DNA of 64,000 nt from Ignavibacteria bacterium (GTDB taxonomy: Bacteria > Bacteroidota > Ignavibacteria > UBA10030 > SZUA-254): assembly GCA_016178595.1 (NCBI GenBank), contig JACOSY010000034.1:1-64000 (forward strand), given 5' to 3'. Positions 14,277 to 30,690 of the stretch are shown one piece after another. Each line of letters opens with the position of its first letter. Position 1 is the stretch's first letter. The notes beneath the pieces are model-generated. The model was given only the letters and a program-made list of their open reading frames with translations, made no database searches and was not told where the DNA came from. A program made the position numbers and the translations under genes.

Positions 14277-14341
14277 ATGGAAGAAAAAAAACTATTCATA
14301 ACGATCCCACCCTTCCCGCGAAGGTGCTCACATGGTCACGA

Positions 14342-14540
14342 TGCTGGTCGGTCTCCTGGCTTACCCGACATACTGACGTCTTCCCGTCCCGCTTGATGCG
14401 GGACAGTGACTCGTGTTGTCAGCAGTACAATCTCAGCTGGCTCATCTGGCCGAGATCGGGTTCACAGTTGCGGGGCAGCTTCCGATTTACACGGAATTCC
14501 CTCATCCCGATTTCATCGGGACTACCACCATCGGTTATGG
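14342..14540 (-). promoter_or_regulatory. Cobalamin riboswitch (B12 element)
   Basis: On the minus strand the conserved aptamer parts occur in order: GAGGGAATTCCGTGTAAATC, then CTGCCCCGCAACTGT, then the B12 box AAGCCAGGAGACCGACC. A variable hairpin GTCCCGC/GCGGGAC lies between the last two parts. These match the class I adenosylcobalamin aptamer. Boundaries are approximate. With the downstream terminator it should switch off the btuB operon when cobalamin is plentiful. Confidence 0.95.
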
Positions 14541-14561
14541 AAAAGAACGAAACGCGCATCT

Positions 14562-23763: not shown

Positions 23764-25254
23764 TTACTCTCTTACTCGCGGGGTGGATGTGACCGTCTGT
23801 ATCTGTTTGGAAAGCCCAAATTGTCTGTCCGAGAACTGGTGAAGACCGAGAGTCTTCGCTACACCAGTAGCAATAATCGTATACATTCTTCCCTCAAGGA
23901 AGTCCGCCGCCGGCATGGACGCAATACCGTAATCTCCTTTTGCGGGATCAACGACTAACTGACCCCGGACTCGACCACCGGGATTCGTCTGATCGTGAAA
24001 GTTGACATACACATGACCGGCAACGACGCTATCAATGGCGCTGTCGGGAATCGCCCATGTGCCTGAGAAAGTGTTCGTGCTCAACGAATCAGGTATGAGC
24101 TGTGCTCGAATTGCGCCAGATCCGTGACCCGGAGTAAGGAAATTTACGTAAATTCTTCCCGTCAACAATTGTGTAACGAGAGCAGGAGTCAGTGGCTCAG
24201 AATCACTCGGCTTCCAGGTTCCAATGATCGTCGTGTCACCAAAAAACGGTGACCCAGTAGCAATTGTTCGGACAACGGGACCGATTGTTCCCGCTGAAGC
24301 GTTATGGAAGTGGGCTGCGATAAACCGATCATCCAATCCGGCACCCTTCGTGACAGTGATCGAATACTCCAATCCATCCTGCGTAAAAGTAAACGAACCG
24401 GTTCCAGATGCCGTTACGGTTGTGTCAGGTGGAACTTCATACTCACCGGAAATTTCCGCTTCCGGGAAAGTAATCTTCTGACTGCTTACATCAATTGGCT
24501 TGGCGACGGGGCCACCCACACCTGCTGCACCAAAGTGAAAATGAGCCGCAGTATACAAGCTATCGCGGACATCCGACTGGAGAGTGATTGAATAGCTTAA
24601 CATCCCACCGGCGGCAATATCAAACGTTCCTGTTCCAGTCGTGCGCGTGTTTACTGTTGGAACTGATTGGCTGCCATTGATTGTTGCCTCATAACCGCCA
24701 TCCGATGTTACGTACACCGCATGTGTACCTGCACTGACATTTGTGTATCCTTGACCTGTCGCAAATGGAACAGCACCTTTTAGCACCGTACCGGTCGCCG
24801 AGCTATCTTTGAATGATACGGCAGGTGCCGATCCCTTGGCCACATGCATGAATCGTATTTGTGCGATGCCCGCTTGGCCATTACTGTTGTTCGTGAAGCT
24901 ATACCCTTCATCCATTGATAGGAACCGATCCGTGCCCGTAAGCGGATAAATCAAAATCGTATTTTGGCTATTGGAGCGCAATGGCACTGTCTTCGTAGCC
25001 GAAGCAAACCCAAACTCCCTACCGCCAGCCGGAAGATCGAGGTAGCCAGTCGCTTCACCAAAAGAAAGAGTCCCGACGGCATTACCATCAACGGTCACTT
25101 GACCACTCGCAGCATCCGTTGCAACATGGACAAAACGAGTAAGCGCACGGTAGTCGGGCGGGAGCTGACCTTGCGATGGAGTATCAACGCAACTCCAAAA
25201 GATCAACGACACTCCACCAACGGCAAGCAAACAAATTGTATGAAGTATTCGCAT
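23764..25254 (-). CDS. Lipoprotein with DUF4397 and CHRD domains, cluster A
   Basis: 496 residues from the ATG at 25254 (GGAGG at good spacing). The N terminus MRILHTICLLAVGGVSLIFW leads to SCVD, a plausible lipobox. Residues about 35-200 match DUF4397 (TRFVHVATDAASGQVTVDG, IRFMHVAKGSAPAVSF). CHRD-type segments follow (GTGSFTFTQDGLEYSITV, AHFHNASAGTIGPVV, GHVYVNFHDQTNPGGRVRGQL). Such domains occur in surface-anchored proteins of unknown binding role. First gene of cluster A, behind a good promoter and a leader of about 205 nt. Confidence 0.87.
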   Translation of the reverse strand: MRILHTICLLAVGGVSLIFWSCVDTPSQGQLPPDYRALTRFVHVATDAASGQVTVDGNAVGTLSFGEATGYLDLPAGGREFGFASATKTVPLRSNSQNTILIYPLTGTDRFLSMDEGYSFTNNSNGQAGIAQIRFMHVAKGSAPAVSFKDSSATGTVLKGAVPFATGQGYTNVSAGTHAVYVTSDGGYEATINGSQSVPTVNTRTTGTGTFDIAAGGMLSYSITLQSDVRDSLYTAAHFHFGAAGVGGPVAKPIDVSSQKITFPEAEISGEYEVPPDTTVTASGTGSFTFTQDGLEYSITVTKGAGLDDRFIAAHFHNASAGTIGPVVRTIATGSPFFGDTTIIGTWKPSDSEPLTPALVTQLLTGRIYVNFLTPGHGSGAIRAQLIPDSLSTNTFSGTWAIPDSAIDSVVAGHVYVNFHDQTNPGGRVRGQLVVDPAKGDYGIASMPAADFLEGRMYTIIATGVAKTLGLHQFSDRQFGLSKQIQTVTSTPRVRE

Positions 25255-25467
25255 GAGATAGACCTCCAAGGCTTTTTGGACTTAGGTCAATAAATTAAAA
25301 CAACTGATGACTTGGAAAATTTTTGTGGGATCACTTCCCACGTGAAGAGACGGAATATGGAATGTTCCGGAGGAAGGCGACAGCCAGACATTGCGTTGAT
25401 CGTTCACTTTCTTTATACCAGTGAGGTCGAACAATGATTCACCGTCTCAGATTCTTATTCTTGGGAG
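25255..25467 (-). other. 5' leader of cluster A
   Basis: About 205 nt between the likely transcription start and the first gene. On the minus strand GACCT in the last 40 nt can pair with AGGTC, which overlaps the ribosome binding site GGAGG, and a GTGGGA/TCCCAC hairpin lies upstream. No known riboswitch was recognised. Confidence 0.35.
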
Positions 25468-25496
25468 AATATAATCAATCAAATCACACTTGTCAA
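25468..25496 (-). promoter_or_regulatory. Promoter of outer-membrane cluster A
   Basis: TTGACA (25491-25496), 17-bp spacer, TATATT (25468-25473) on the minus strand. The first base of the -35 box is the last base of the 8-bp target duplication of the transposon, so everything farther upstream was replaced by the insertion. Confidence 0.75.
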
Positions 25497-25503
25497 GTTT
25501 TTC
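25496..25503. repeat. Target site duplication, left copy
   Basis: AGTTTTTC, identical to 28879-28886 on the other side of the transposon. Confidence 0.92.
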
Positions 25504-25522
25504 GGTAGTGTTACAGTTTGAT
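25504..25522 (+). repeat. Left terminal inverted repeat of the transposon
   Basis: GGTAGTGTTACAGTTTGAT; the exact reverse complement is at 28860-28878. Confidence 0.93.
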
Positions 25523-25525
25523 ATC

Positions 25526-25601
25526 CTCGGTTTGTCACCGAGCACATAGGTCAGACCGCGCCTCCCTACTCAATGCAGACGGCTACTCAGTTCGAGTAGC
25601 C
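25526..25601. other. Two subterminal hairpins at the left transposon end
   Basis: CTCGGT/ACCGAG with a 5-nt loop (25526-25542) and GGCTACTC/GAGTAGCC with a 5-nt loop (25581-25601), both perfect. Neither has a T-run. Role unknown; could be transposase contacts or RNA structures. Confidence 0.6.
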
Positions 25602-25653
25602 ATCCTGCTTTTCAGTGTAGAGATCACGACTACAAATCTCATCTTTATCTAAC

Positions 25654-25687
25654 AAAAAGGACGAACAGGGCAAGCCCATCCGTCCTT
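25654..25687 (-). terminator. Terminator-like hairpin facing out of the transposon
   Basis: AAGGACG/CGTCCTT enclosing GGGC/GCCC, followed on the minus strand by five T residues. It would stop minus-strand transcripts leaving the element toward cluster A, although no minus-strand gene lies immediately upstream. Confidence 0.65.
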
Positions 25688-25911
25688 AGCAAACCACGCC
25701 ACACTTGAGATGTGAACTATGATTCTTACTAATATAATGTAACGGGGTGATTATATTCAAATTGAAAACAAAACAATCTTTTCCGGTTTTGAACTTTAAT
25801 TATACGGACAAGGATGAAAAAATGAAATTTTTATGTAATTGATAAAACGTTGATTCTATTGTATTTATACAAAATAAAACTGGATAGTTTTCATTTTCCC
25901 GAAGTTTGCTA

Positions 25912-25940
25912 TTGACAAAGCCGGAATTCTTTCGTACATT
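25912..25940 (+). promoter_or_regulatory. Promoter of the 280-residue passenger gene
   Basis: TTGACA (25912-25917), 17-bp spacer, TACATT (25935-25940), 45 bp before the ATG, which has AGAGGTG as ribosome binding site. Confidence 0.6.
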
Positions 25941-25984
25941 ATATACAAGCAAACCGACATACTTTAATCTCAAAGAGGTGAACT

Positions 25985-26827
25985 ATGAATACCACGAATA
26001 CTCCAGCCGATCCGCAGGAAGCTCCTTCCAAACAAAGAAGCAAATACGGTACAAAAACACCGTATATTTCCTTTGAAGAATGCGTCAGAATTACAAAAGA
26101 TGTTTGCAAGCTCGCGGGGTTTGACGGGACTATTGATGCTCTCGTGAAGATCACGGGTAATTCGCCCAGTAGTAGCTCATTCACCGACAAGAGGAGTGCT
26201 GTCAAAGGCTTTGGCTTGATGACCACTCAGGGGCAAACCTATTCTCTGACTGATATTGGTAAACGTGTTGCTCAACCAGAGTCAGCAGAAAACGAAGCAG
26301 AAGCAATCTTTGAAGCATTTTGCAAGAATGATACTCTTAAAAACGTGTGGGAGAACTACAAAGGAAAAATCCTTCCTCAAGCTGAATATATCGCAAACTA
26401 TTTTGAAACGAATCTTGAAATTCCCACCGAGCGAAAGGATGATTGGGCTTCATATTTCATCGAAGCCGCCAAGTATGCTGGCTTATTGCACGAAAGGGAA
26501 TCAGGTTCATATCAAGTTCTTCTCGGGCCGAGTGTTAGTAAAAAGACCGATGTAGAGCCACCGACCAATGGTAAAGGAGAAGCTAAACTACCTCTCAAGA
26601 AACCCGAATCACAAATCGAAGCCCTTACGAAAAATCCTGCACTTCCAACTATCGAAGTCACTGAAAGTGAGCACTGGGGAATCCTGAGTCAACGAAGGAT
26701 TTCCGGAAACAGAAAAGCAGTCATTGCTATTCCAGACGAATTGTTGCAAGAAGACATTGATATGTTGAAGACAATCCTGAAAGGAATCGACGTGCAACTT
26801 GATGGTCTGAAAAAATACAATGCTTGA
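25985..26827 (+). CDS. Unknown passenger protein of the transposon, winged-helix-like
   Basis: 280 residues. No confident family. The N-terminal 30 residues are polar and disordered-looking. Residues about 30-180 read like two winged-helix-type units: SFTDKRSAVKGFGLMTTQGQ followed by YSLTDIGKRVAQPES, a pattern seen in proteins that sense or bind DNA, then a helical segment ending YFIEAAKYAGLLHER. A low-complexity linker (PTNGKGEAKLPLKKPE) leads to a C-terminal segment with AVIAIPDELLQEDIDMLKTI. The gene ends exactly where the strong ribosome binding site of the next small ORF begins. A regulatory or DNA-binding role is only a guess. Confidence 0.75.
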   Translation: MNTTNTPADPQEAPSKQRSKYGTKTPYISFEECVRITKDVCKLAGFDGTIDALVKITGNSPSSSSFTDKRSAVKGFGLMTTQGQTYSLTDIGKRVAQPESAENEAEAIFEAFCKNDTLKNVWENYKGKILPQAEYIANYFETNLEIPTERKDDWASYFIEAAKYAGLLHERESGSYQVLLGPSVSKKTDVEPPTNGKGEAKLPLKKPESQIEALTKNPALPTIEVTESEHWGILSQRRISGNRKAVIAIPDELLQEDIDMLKTILKGIDVQLDGLKKYNA

Positions 26828-26844
26828 GAAAGGAGGTGATCGCA

Positions 26845-26889
26845 ATGTGGAATAGACTCCATATAAGACAAAAACGCCTAACACGGTAA
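26845..26889 (+). CDS. 14-codon ORF with exceptionally strong ribosome binding site
   Basis: ATG at 26845, product MWNRLHIRQKRLTR, stop TAA. The 15 bases at 26827-26841 (AGAAAGGAGGTGATC) are complementary to the usual 3' end of bacterial 16S rRNA over their whole length, 3 bases before the ATG, and overlap the stop codon of the preceding gene. The ORF runs into the left arm of the first of several hairpins, so it may act as a leader peptide whose translation alters RNA folding ahead of the transposase gene. Could also be coincidence; the peptide itself is unrecognised. Confidence 0.4.
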   Translation: MWNRLHIRQKRLTR

Positions 26890-27058
26890 TAACGAGATCG
26901 TGATAGGCGCTCTACAGTAACGTCACGAGTCGTGGCGGCTGAATCTTTAACCGGATGAAGCCGCTACACTCTTCAAATAACGGGTTTGCAAGTGCTATTA
27001 ACACCTACAAACCCTGTTCAATCACACGCTGTTTAGGAGCGCATGACCGACCAGTCAT
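26875..27058 (+). other. Structured intergenic region before the transposase gene
   Basis: Five possible hairpins: CGCCTA.CACG/CGTG.TAGGCG (26875-26909), CACGA/TCGTG (26924-26934), GTGGCGGCT/AGCCGCTAC (26932-26967, exclusive with the preceding one), GGGTTTG/CAAACCC with an inner GTG/CAC (26982-27014), and ATGAC/GTCAT (27043-27058). No T-run follows any of them. It may be a regulatory leader of the transposase or a separate small RNA. Confidence 0.5.
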
Positions 27059-27096
27059 AAGATACGCTTCTTGGCAGCCAAAATCAAGGAGCGTAT

Positions 27097-27933
27097 ATGA
27101 ACATCCTCCCAATCGAGAAAAAATCCCTCATCCTTTCTCTTCTCACTGAGGGTCAATCAGTCCGCGCGACTTCCCGTATTGCTGACGTTTCTCCGGTTAC
27201 GGTTCTCAAGCTCTTGCTTGAGGCGGGACAGAAAGCCCGCGACATCCACGACTCATTCATGGTCAATATCCGAGCGAACTACATTCAGTGCGATGAGCAG
27301 TGGCAATACGTTTTTTGCAAACAGAAGCGCATTCGATCTGAGGAAGAAGAAAAGGAACGGGGAGACTTCTACACATTCGTTGCAATGGATTCAGACAGTA
27401 AACTTGCAATCTGTTACCGTGTCGGTAAACGGAACGCGAGGCTCACAGCATCGTTTATGATGGAGCTTTCTGTCAGGGTAGCGACACGCTTTCAGCTTAG
27501 TACGGACTCATTCATTCCTTACCGAGAGGCAGTTGATCGCGTGTTCGGTAATGACATTGCATACGCGCAAATTCATAAAGAGTACCGACAAGACCCAATG
27601 AATGAGAAGCGGTACAGTCCGGGTAAAATAATACGTGTCACAAAGAATCCAATCACGGGAAATCCTAATCCGAAACGCATCTCGACAAGTCATATCGAAA
27701 GGCTCAACCTCACGGCACGGATGAACTGCCGTCGCTTCACGAGACTTAGCAATGCGTTCTCAAAGAGTTTGACGCATCACGAGGCGGCAGTAGCATTGCA
27801 TTTCTTTCACTATAACTTCGTTAGGACGCATCAAACTCTACGGGTTACTCCAGCAGTCGAGGCGAAGGTTACAAACAGGCTTTGGAATTGGGAAGACTTG
27901 TTGAATTGGGGAAGAGAAGCGAAGGCGGCTTGA
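27097..27933 (+). CDS. IS1-family-like DDE transposase
   Basis: 278 residues, ATG behind AAGGAG. Residues 1-45 form a helix-turn-helix (SVRATSRIADVSPVTVLKLL). The catalytic core shows CDEQWQYVF (Asp66), LSTDSFIPYREAV (Asp137) and HIERLNLTARM (Glu201), with the family ending FFHYNFVRTHQTLRVTPAVEA. These match single-frame relatives of the IS1 transposase; classical IS1 needs a frameshift to join its two parts, here they are one ORF. It ends 6 bp from the stop of the convergent 299-residue gene. All catalytic residues are present, so the element may be active. Confidence 0.88.
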   Translation: MNILPIEKKSLILSLLTEGQSVRATSRIADVSPVTVLKLLLEAGQKARDIHDSFMVNIRANYIQCDEQWQYVFCKQKRIRSEEEEKERGDFYTFVAMDSDSKLAICYRVGKRNARLTASFMMELSVRVATRFQLSTDSFIPYREAVDRVFGNDIAYAQIHKEYRQDPMNEKRYSPGKIIRVTKNPITGNPNPKRISTSHIERLNLTARMNCRRFTRLSNAFSKSLTHHEAAVALHFFHYNFVRTHQTLRVTPAVEAKVTNRLWNWEDLLNWGREAKAA

Positions 27934-27939
27934 TGATTA

Positions 27940-28839
27940 CTATTTGTTTTCCGTCAACAAAGGTAATTGATCGAGAGGATTAAGCGGGATAATCTCTTTG
28001 ACCTTAGTAATGTCATGATGAATGCCAACAACCTCTTTGTCATAACCGTATTTCACGTTGATGTTGACCATAACTCTAAGAGAGTCACCTGGACGCACAT
28101 CATATTTTCTCGATTGGAAATTCTTCAACCATTCGGCATCAAGAAATTTTGCATATATCGGATGCGTACCATGCCTAAATTCCCACTGAGATTCACCAAG
28201 ATAATCAGGCTTTTTTACCTTCAAAACCATTTCTGAGGGCGTCGTAATTGTTTCTTGGGTCATAAGCTCTTCGATATTCTCTGGCACAAAATGAAATCTT
28301 GCATTCATTTCTACATCTTTATCGGTGGTAATGTATGTTGCTTTGTCGTTCTCATTAAGATTCGAAAGAGCTACGGTCAATTTTTCAATGTTGCTAAGCA
28401 ATCTTTGACGTTGCACCGGCGCGTATGCAGGAAAATGCGTTACGTCGGTTTCCTCGGCAGACTTCAAAAGATCACGTTCCAATCCCTCTACTTCTGTTCT
28501 ATTTACAATCTCCGTTTTATCTTTCAGGAAATTCACGACAATGTATTTGGCTCTTACCAAATATTTTCCTACTGCGGGTTTCCAGTCAATATGTTTCAAT
28601 GCTTCATCATCAACCGCTTTCAGCACAGTGCTTAACCATGCTTTCAATGATCCAGCCTCAATGTCTTCGATTATTGCAACAGGCTCGATCTTAGCATCAA
28701 TGGATTCTATGAGAGTCTTGTCAATTTCTTGGAATGTTTCAATCAAGTCCGTCATTGCACGGAAGACCCGTGACGGAGACTCGCTTCCCCTCTGAAAATC
28801 GATTTCAATGCAGAAATCAGCTTTCATGTTCTTAGCCAT
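27940..28839 (-). CDS. Unknown 299-residue passenger protein of the transposon
   Basis: No confident family. It starts MAKNMKADFCIEIDFQRGSE and has a helical middle. The C-terminal 80 residues (YLGESQWEFRHGTHPIYAKF, SRKYDVRPGDSLRVMVNINV) read like a compact beta-domain that I have the impression of seeing in other hypothetical proteins. No signal peptide, so cytoplasmic. A TATATT box at 28846-28851 lies only 6 bp before the first ATG; either the mRNA is leaderless or translation starts at the second Met (28827). Only 20 bp separate the gene from the right inverted repeat. Function unknown. Confidence 0.72.
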   Translation of the reverse strand: MAKNMKADFCIEIDFQRGSESPSRVFRAMTDLIETFQEIDKTLIESIDAKIEPVAIIEDIEAGSLKAWLSTVLKAVDDEALKHIDWKPAVGKYLVRAKYIVVNFLKDKTEIVNRTEVEGLERDLLKSAEETDVTHFPAYAPVQRQRLLSNIEKLTVALSNLNENDKATYITTDKDVEMNARFHFVPENIEELMTQETITTPSEMVLKVKKPDYLGESQWEFRHGTHPIYAKFLDAEWLKNFQSRKYDVRPGDSLRVMVNINVKYGYDKEVVGIHHDITKVKEIIPLNPLDQLPLLTENK

Positions 28840-28859
28840 AAGGGGAATATAAGAAAAAA

Positions 28860-28878
28860 ATCAAACTGTAACACTACC
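28860..28878 (-). repeat. Right terminal inverted repeat of the transposon
   Basis: ATCAAACTGTAACACTACC, exact reverse complement of 25504-25522. Confidence 0.93.
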
Positions 28879-28886
28879 AGTTTTTC
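28879..28886. repeat. Target site duplication, right copy
   Basis: AGTTTTTC, identical to 25496-25503. Confidence 0.92.
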
Positions 28887-29100: not shown

Positions 29101-30690
29101 TTACAGCGTAATCAGCTTGATGCCTGAAACACCCTGAAGCGCTGCAATTTCTTTGAGGATGGAATGTGGCACAATACTATCGGTAGAAATGATCGTCAGG
29201 GCCTTGCTGCCGACACCGTAGCGTCCCAACGAGAGTCCGGCAATATTGATATTGGCACGGGCCAAGATTCCGCTGACGTTCGCGAGCATTCCCGGTTTAT
29301 CAATGTTCGAGTATAAAAGGAGATGCCCCTCAGGTTTGACTTCGAAGTGGAAGCCATCGACGTTGATAATGCGAAGATCTTTGTTTCCAAAAACTGTTCC
29401 GGCAATAACCCGACGTTCTTTCTCCATCTGGTATTCCACAGAGAGAACGTGTGTGTAGAGACCGTCATCCATCGCCTGATGAAGATGAATCGCAATACCA
29501 CGCTCTCGGGCAAGGAACGGCGCATTGAGATAATTGACAGGCTCATCCATCGCTTTCTCGAAAAGCCCTTTCATGATCGCCGCACCCAATGCCGATGCCG
29601 CTTCCTGCAATGATTCACCCGTCACTGAAACGGAAACCGAGCGAATAACACCCTCCTTAACCTGTGCAATCATTCGGCCGATTCGCTCAGCCAGATCAAG
29701 GTACGGCTGGAGCTCCTTCTTCATCGCTACCTGAATGATATCGGCATTGACGGAGCCGACCATCCCGCGTCCTTTGAGTGCGTCAGACACCTGGAGTGCT
29801 ATTTGCATCGCCACTTTCTCCTGCGCCTCTTCTGTCGATGCACCGAGATGCGGCGTCATAATGACTTTGGGATGCTGAATGAGTGGTGAATCTTTCGGTG
29901 GTTCTTGTTCGAATACATCGAGCGCCGCACCGGCAACATGTCCATCATTCAGGCTCCTGAGAAGGGCAGCTTCGTCAACGATGCCACCACGCGCGCAGTT
30001 GATAATCCGGACGCCCTTCTTGCAGATGCTGAGTGCTCGCTCGCCAATGAGTCCCTTCGTCTCGGGAATCAGCGGCGAGTGGACCGTGACTATATCGGAT
30101 TCACGCAGGAGGCGATCCAACTCAACGAGTTCCGCACCGGCCTTCGACGCCGTTTCCGGTGATTGGACGGGATCGTACGCCAGAATCTTCATACCGAATG
30201 CAACACAACGGCGTGCCACTTCTATACCGACTTTGCCGAGTCCAACGATACCGAGGATCTTGCCCTGAAGCTCCATCCCGACGAACGACTTTCGATCCCA
30301 CTTGCCCGACTTTACACTCTGATGCGCTTGCGGAATGTTTCGCGCCAACGCAAGCATCATCGAGATCGTATGCTCTGCAGTTGAAATCGTGTTCCCGCCG
30401 GGCGTATTCATGACGATGACTCCGCGGCGTGTTGCTGCATTCACGTCAATGTTATCAACCCCGGCACCTGCCCGACCGACAACCTTCAGCACTTTGCCGG
30501 CTTCGAGAATCTCCGACGTCACCTGTGTCTGACTGCGAACGATCAAAACATGAGCGTTCCCGATCAACTTTTTCACTTCATCGGGGGAAATACCCGGAGA
30601 GTAGACCACGTCGAATCCCTCCGACTTGAAAATATCCACACAGCGAGGATCGACAGGATCGGTGATGAGCACATTCATCGGCTGGTTCAT
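29101..30690 (-). CDS. serA: D-3-phosphoglycerate dehydrogenase
   Basis: 529 residues, the long three-domain form. Substrate and nucleotide domains: VVGRAGAGVDNIDVNAATRRG, GKILGIVGLGKVGIEVARRC (NAD site), NCARGGIVDEAALL and HLGASTEEAQEKVAMQI with the catalytic His. An allosteric substrate-binding domain covers about 320-450 and an ACT domain the last 75 residues (LLLYSNIDKPGMLANVSGIL), pointing to serine feedback. It catalyses the first step of serine synthesis. It starts 9 bp after the class V aminotransferase gene, so the two form an operon. Confidence 0.97.
   Translation of the reverse strand: MNQPMNVLITDPVDPRCVDIFKSEGFDVVYSPGISPDEVKKLIGNAHVLIVRSQTQVTSEILEAGKVLKVVGRAGAGVDNIDVNAATRRGVIVMNTPGGNTISTAEHTISMMLALARNIPQAHQSVKSGKWDRKSFVGMELQGKILGIVGLGKVGIEVARRCVAFGMKILAYDPVQSPETASKAGAELVELDRLLRESDIVTVHSPLIPETKGLIGERALSICKKGVRIINCARGGIVDEAALLRSLNDGHVAGAALDVFEQEPPKDSPLIQHPKVIMTPHLGASTEEAQEKVAMQIALQVSDALKGRGMVGSVNADIIQVAMKKELQPYLDLAERIGRMIAQVKEGVIRSVSVSVTGESLQEAASALGAAIMKGLFEKAMDEPVNYLNAPFLARERGIAIHLHQAMDDGLYTHVLSVEYQMEKERRVIAGTVFGNKDLRIINVDGFHFEVKPEGHLLLYSNIDKPGMLANVSGILARANINIAGLSLGRYGVGSKALTIISTDSIVPHSILKEIAALQGVSGIKLITL

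Follow-up and report, generated by a model that had tools for sequence, protein, structure and literature searches.

An intact IS1-related transposon with two additional genes belongs to a cargo-carrying clade and has a structured RNA leader before its transposase gene

Results

An intact IS1-related element encloses a transposase gene and two further genes

A 64,000-nt stretch of contig JACOSY010000034.1 from an Ignavibacteria bacterium (GenBank assembly GCA_016178595.1; hereafter the window) contains a 3,375-bp mobile element at positions 25504-28878, in which inverted ends and a target duplication frame an open transposase gene (tnp) and two further genes, P1 and P2. The inverted ends, GGTAGTGTTACAGTTTGAT, are identical over 19/19 bp with a mismatch at base 20, and a search for this 19-bp end allowing up to three mismatches returned these two sites only in the window and none in 100 shuffles. 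Exact 8-bp copies of the target duplication, AGTTTTTC, adjoin both ends. From left to right, the interior consists of ~460 bp without a likely gene, P1, a 269-bp leader, tnp and P2; the three open reading frames (ORFs) are all open, and tnp and P2 converge with 7 bp between their stop codons (Table 1). The initial annotation, made from the letters of the sequence, had described perfect terminal repeats, a perfect 8-bp duplication, an apparently complete DDE transposase and, overall, an intact IS1-family-type element with two extra genes, all of which these data bear out. The element is a real, intact transporter-type relative of IS1. Its anatomy shows that the element was placed between two genes by a single DDE transposase using the 19-bp ends and duplicating 8 bp of target.

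Table 1. Coordinates of the element's features in the window
Feature	Position	Strand	Remarks
Left target duplication copy, 8 bp	25496..25503	no strand	AGTTTTTC
Left terminal inverted repeat, 19 bp	25504..25522	+	GGTAGTGTTACAGTTTGAT
Gene 1 (P1), 280 aa	25985..26827	+	Two winged-helix domains and a C-terminal helix
Candidate 14-aa leader ORF	26845..26889	+	MWNRLHIRQKRLTR; very strong ribosome-binding site at 26829-26841; read from sequence
Structured RNA leader of tnp	26982..27090	+	Hairpin A, hairpin B, probable pseudoknot
Transposase (tnp), 278 aa	27097..27933	+	IS1-family DDE type (D66, D137, E201)
Gene 2 (P2), 299 aa	27940..28839	-	LAPAL family NF053583
Right terminal inverted repeat, 19 bp	28860..28878	-	GGTAGTGTTACAGTTTGAT
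Right target duplication copy, 8 bp	28879..28886	no strand	AGTTTTTC

The transposase matched the IS1 models NF033558 (53 bits, E 3.5e-14; curated cut-off 100 bits) and DDE_Tnp_IS1 (23.9 bits, E 5.6e-5; cut-off 24.1), and we regard it, given scores below both cut-offs, as a divergent family member. Conservation of its residues D66, D137 and E201 among 104 relatives is 97% or higher, and the protein deviates at only two of the positions conserved to at least 95%, both mildly (S218 and V254). Transposase type, catalytic residues, GG-starting ends of the usual length (~15-25 bp) and a duplication of the usual size (8-9 bp) all agree with the IS1 family, but the ~0.7-1.2 kb and exclusive content of transposition genes expected of its members do not fit an element of 3,375 bp with two extra genes, which we therefore file as an IS1-related transporter variant rather than a typical IS1. 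It does have the composition of a transporter insertion sequence (tIS), namely insertion sequence ends, a transposase and passenger genes between the ends. A perfect short hairpin, GGCTACTCAGTTCGAGTAGCC, lies close to the left end (25581-25601).

The genes beside the element encode the 23764-25269 protein and the SerA-like 29101-30690 protein and stand 3.8 kb apart in the window. In two genomes of the same family but other genera (G007 and G009) their homologues are adjacent, ~350-360 bp apart, with none of the three element genes between them. This empty locus in two sister genera supports the simplest account, that the element was inserted in the window's lineage. Searching the whole genome for the 19-bp end uncovered one further site, with two mismatches, on contig C60, next to degenerate remains of this transposase. 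This decayed copy (G000, L006:2031-3430) retains one end, with the two mismatches, and the tail of the transposase, interrupted by a stop, and encloses ORFs that resemble by eye a HicA/HicB pair, of which HicB has no NCBIfam match. No near-identical copy of the element was found, the best transposase relative being ~60% identical, nor were P1 and P2 found together outside it. The initial annotation took the element to have moved recently and its cargo to be probably functional and spread between strains; the perfect ends make recent movement plausible, a functional cargo is conjectural, and these searches turned up no sign that this cargo set has spread.

Cargo is the rule in the clade of the window's transposase

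Relatives of the transposase with 46-60% identity over the full length occur in 20/100 related genomes, and GTDB genomes hold them at 555 or more places, of which the best 80 were kept. We delimited elements with an end finder that assumes no sequence and requires inverted 16-mers with at most four mismatches adjoining an exact 8-bp duplication. It delimited 76 of 105 transposase copies, and removal of two non-GG pairs left 74 elements, including that of the window; their lengths range from 2,035 to 6,694 bp with a median of 3,245, and none has less than 1,210 bp of DNA other than tnp. When left and right halves of different loci were paired as a control, GG-ended pairs emerged in 3/912 cases, versus 74/105 for the real copies. 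Scanning of viral contigs with the single transposase protein gave no match, and scanning with the transposase alignment gave 137. An independent set from viral contigs added 47 delimited elements. Hosts include Ignavibacteria, Chlorobiota, Bacteroidota, Proteobacteria, Acidobacteria and Verrucomicrobia, with some elements on plasmids and in viral contigs, and target duplications have no sequence in common across elements.

Passengers are present in 119 of the 121 delimited elements (74 + 47). Two minimal elements of the viral set, of 1,323 and 1,365 bp, have a small accessory gene next to tnp and nothing else, so that bare elements do occur, though rarely. The initial annotation rightly saw an element with passengers, but its description of such IS1 elements as uncommon is too weak for this IS1-type clade, in which, judged from these sequences, cargo is the rule. 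The same set bears on whether the window's element is a chance assembly, in which an IS1 copy captured neighbouring genes on one occasion and no wider family exists. Its single copy and the P1/P2 combination, observed once, would fit such an origin, but 120 other delimited elements with like ends and duplications, nearly all with passengers, refute it and leave it exceedingly improbable.

At L043:2428-11588 two different clade elements lie side by side in opposite orientation with one shared target duplication, AAAATTTT. On a Methylocapsa plasmid (L175:455-1633) a gene for a Shedu immune nuclease lies 2-3 kb from a transposase relative, and no element ends were found there.

Passengers are enriched in toxin-antitoxin and defence-type families

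We matched 150 passengers of delimited elements to Pfam and PADLOC, with 149 ORFs flanking the same elements as the control. Among the passengers, HTH_3 (14) and Peptidase_M78 (12) were followed by N6_N4 methylases (5), SDH proteases (5), SocA_Panacea (4), P63C (3), Fic (2) and one Tsp45I restriction enzyme, and the PADLOC-type families RmrA (up to 10) and PD-Lambda-2_B (9) were also represented; further cargo includes an MvaI/BcnI restriction enzyme and DUF1828 and DUF3800 proteins. The flanking ORFs belonged to housekeeping families, with no cargo family among the Pfam families matched at least twice and with PADLOC matches spread over 19 families of at most two members each. By these family assignments, toxin-antitoxin and defence-type families are strongly over-represented in the cargo relative to the flanking genes. 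Such cargo probably aids persistence of the elements through addiction or host protection. In addition, a coiled-coil protein with a HARE-HTH-like (helix-turn-helix) part occurs in 10/78 elements, frequently in the stretch from the left end to tnp (e.g., L038:5369-5755, L103:5256-5801, L095:4703-5158).

A conserved structured RNA precedes the transposase gene

The leader of tnp in the window (26828-27099) folds with -94.4 kcal/mol (z -6.1 versus shuffles), and its final ~110 nt are common to other elements; the initial annotation had overlooked this RNA. A covariance model built from 16 sequences matched, outside its build set, loci L059 and L061 strongly and L137, L071 and L074 more weakly, and in the independent viral set it matched L193 (E 1.2e-9), directly before tnp. 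Pairing statistics on 18 aligned sequences gave 89.2% paired cells, versus 71.8% after shuffling and 27-45% when the alignment was slid, with compensatory changes on both sides at 16 of 19 pairs (62 such cells versus 18.7 expected). A bulged duplex test further paired a segment 5' of hairpin B with the loop of this hairpin, which would make a pseudoknot: the duplex energy sum was -59.1 versus -36.9 +/- 5.2 for swapped partners, with 0/5,000 as low, a difference that relatedness may inflate. A simple test of contiguous pairing was not significant (p 0.24), and we grade the pseudoknot as probable.

Linkage of this RNA to tnp is strict. Across 98 genomes of the order, 14/14 full-length matches lie just upstream of this transposase, and 297 genomes of the phylum yielded further matches (G231 and G344) in the same position. 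Since the genes upstream of the RNA differ between elements, the RNA travels with tnp; and because its last nucleotides lie immediately ahead of the ribosome-binding region of tnp, we take it as an mRNA leader that would control transposase output. The folded leader would most likely act on translation or decay of the transposase message, keeping transposition low. In Rfam 15, the leader has no match at the gathering threshold, and three weak matches at E<=1 do not overlap it. A search of the open-access literature, with subscription journals and ISfinder outside its scope, found no paper describing the clade or the RNA. Several elements (L045, L168, L042, L038, L060, L044) have tiny conserved ORFs with strong ribosome-binding sites just before the RNA, of types such as a 23-aa MxxxWG...ARAII and a 9-aa MSKVLKLIQ, which are possible leader peptides.

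The hairpins upstream of tnp could instead act as DNA, as palindromic protein-binding sites or cruciforms. Most pairs are indeed Watson-Crick, and dimeric regulators, e.g., winged-helix proteins, can bind inverted repeats. However, G-U pairs are tolerated at 57/96 (7 of 14 paired) and also at 53/99, 54/98 and 59/94, loops have conserved single-stranded letters, the pseudoknot is supported, the arms of hairpin A change wholesale between elements with pairing kept, unlike a binding site, and the motif has a single orientation, immediately ahead of the tnp ribosome-binding site. We thus hold a role as DNA to be unlikely. Still less probable, to the point of being scarcely tenable, is a trans-acting guide comparable to IS110 bridge RNA or IS605 omega RNA, which the strict transposase linkage and the pseudoknotted structure would suit: compared with swapped pairs, the RNA has no excess complementarity to its own target (p 0.91) or its own element ends (p 0.58), so that the element does not qualify as a guide-RNA transposon of the IS110/IS605 type; target duplications lack a common sequence, and the sister clade does without the RNA. 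An mRNA leader of tnp remains our preferred interpretation of the motif.

Presence of the RNA divides the clade. In a tree of 105 transposases, the leader is almost entirely confined to the window's branch (present in 22 of the 24 rows of this branch), and its distribution requires three changes on the tree versus 20.2 when shuffled. In the remaining tree, without the RNA, 53 elements encode a small basic protein that contains a GGxKGG motif and whose gene is usually the first at the left end, and this protein is also present in 44/47 elements of the viral set. No element with both the RNA leader and the GGxKGG protein was found. Examples of the protein (L065:4805-5038, L104:2459-2698) belong to no Pfam or NCBIfam family and weakly match the N-terminus of phrog_2384.

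P1 recurs beside the transposase gene

AlphaFold models of P1, computed with eight family members, show two confident winged-helix domains (~residues 24-180; predicted local distance difference test, pLDDT, ~90), a disordered linker and a C-terminal helix, with an overall mean pLDDT of 66.6; a fold search returned generic winged-helix regulators only (best E 5e-3). The family occurs in 9/78 delimited elements and at L168, always beside tnp and with otherwise unrelated cargo, its partners elsewhere including Panacea proteins and an M78-like peptidase. A blind search of 396 genomes that used P1 alone matched four other genomes, two of them with P1 directly upstream of this transposase, one of which is the L060 element again. 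The initial annotation had seen no link of either gene to transposition, which is probably wrong for P1, given its recurrence beside tnp in ~10 elements with differing cargo.

P1 and P2 might nonetheless both be plain passengers, e.g., halves of one defence or toxin-antitoxin system split around tnp, with P1 having no part in transposition. Some family members do lie apart from this transposase, close to restriction-like or other genes (L169, L170, L171), P1 can point away from tnp in other elements, and the winged-helix fold is typical of antitoxins and regulators. Against this, P1 keeps its place beside tnp in delimited elements while its partners change, P2 was seen in one delimited element only, and no P1-P2 pair was found elsewhere. 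We judge plain carriage of both to be a serious but less probable possibility, and an accessory role of P1 to be somewhat more likely than free cargo. On the strength of recurrence and modelled fold, P1 would most likely bind DNA in an accessory capacity for the transposon, e.g., to regulate tnp or as a co-factor of transposition.

P2 is a LAPAL-family passenger with phage-associated relatives

P2 belongs to the LAPAL family NF053583 (104.3 bits, cut-off 60), which counts as a phage moron and a candidate for defence, and weakly matches the PADLOC defence candidate PDC-S42 (27.5 bits, E 5.1e-7); the literal LAPAL motif is absent, with SPSRVFRAMTDL in its place. The family is sporadic, in 14/346 genomes of the phylum. 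The closest relatives of P2, at 35-45% identity, reside in (pro)phage or viral contigs, where they sit at the terminus of a phage genome or follow a portal-like gene; genome contigs contained no close relatives by peptide pattern, and none was found on plasmids. In a sister genus (G008, L164), a LAPAL gene and a degenerate remnant of this transposase are arranged tail to tail, as in the window. Family and context suggest that P2 is a true passenger, most likely a phage-related gene, with a phage-borne role in defence or exclusion as our best guess.

Outside the element, the window also holds a cobalamin riboswitch on the minus strand (14329-14544).

Discussion

Taken jointly, the data make it likely that the window holds a complete transporter-type IS1 insertion from a cargo-carrying clade, with tnp under control of an RNA, P1 as an accessory and P2 as a passenger. 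Comparison of the elements indicates that members of the clade almost always hold 1-5 kb of passenger DNA with a toxin-antitoxin and anti-phage bias. Several observations weigh against this reading. Besides the sub-threshold IS1 scores and the P1 relatives away from the transposase, the element is a single copy on a long branch of the transposase tree; the AlphaFold model of P2 (three sequences) is of low confidence (mean pLDDT 56) and was not used for a fold search; and HTH and M78 proteins are common on all mobile elements, "defence" being a family label.

More tentatively, this IS1-type branch may have specialised as a compact vehicle of 2-6.7 kb that moves genes for toxin-antitoxin systems and phage defence across phyla. 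Within the sub-branch of the window, tnp might be governed by a previously undescribed class of pseudoknotted RNA, possibly sensing a ligand or the cell state, together with a dedicated two-winged-helix accessory, and the sister branch might use the small basic protein and an ordinary promoter instead. A widespread clade with defence-type cargo in nearly every element would be a vehicle that is easy to search, and, as its ends mark the cargo with base-pair precision, it would offer a route to undiscovered genes of toxin-antitoxin and anti-phage type. In the linked RNA, a DDE transposase would have a new structured motif as its control element, for which a covariance model is in hand. How small cargo-bearing transposons restrain their transposase thereby becomes a directly testable question.

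Insertion sequences are usually treated as cargo-free. Classic IS1 has two frames joined by frameshifting, and the ISfinder IS1 subgroup ISMhu11 has longer members. With the single-ORF branch of the IS1 family, the element shares a DDE transposase with IS1 profile matches, ends that start with GGnnnTG and an 8-bp duplication, but it measures 3.4 kb versus ~0.8-1.2 kb and adds passengers and a structured RNA leader. Structured RNAs physically linked to a transposase are known as the IS110 bridge RNA and the omega RNA of IS605/IscB; the linkage is common to both, whereas here the enzyme is of the DDE IS1 type, the RNA occupies the position of an mRNA leader and guide-like complementarity is missing. 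P2, in turn, agrees by profile score with LAPAL NF053583/PDC-S42 and differs in being carried by a transposon and in the missing literal motif.

A tIS consists of insertion sequence ends, a single transposase and passenger genes, and such elements have been presented as isolated cases, exemplified by an IS6 member carrying a single passenger (PMC9330008, PMC7986276). Ends, transposase and passengers are likewise present here, but in a large multi-phylum clade that has passengers almost without exception. Tn7-like transposons have cargo biased to defence genes (PMC8649781), and toxin-antitoxin passengers are found in Tn3-family transposons (PMC9330008). The clade shares this cargo bias with both, yet its elements are much smaller (2-6.7 kb), show no target-selection or resolution module and encode one IS1-type transposase.

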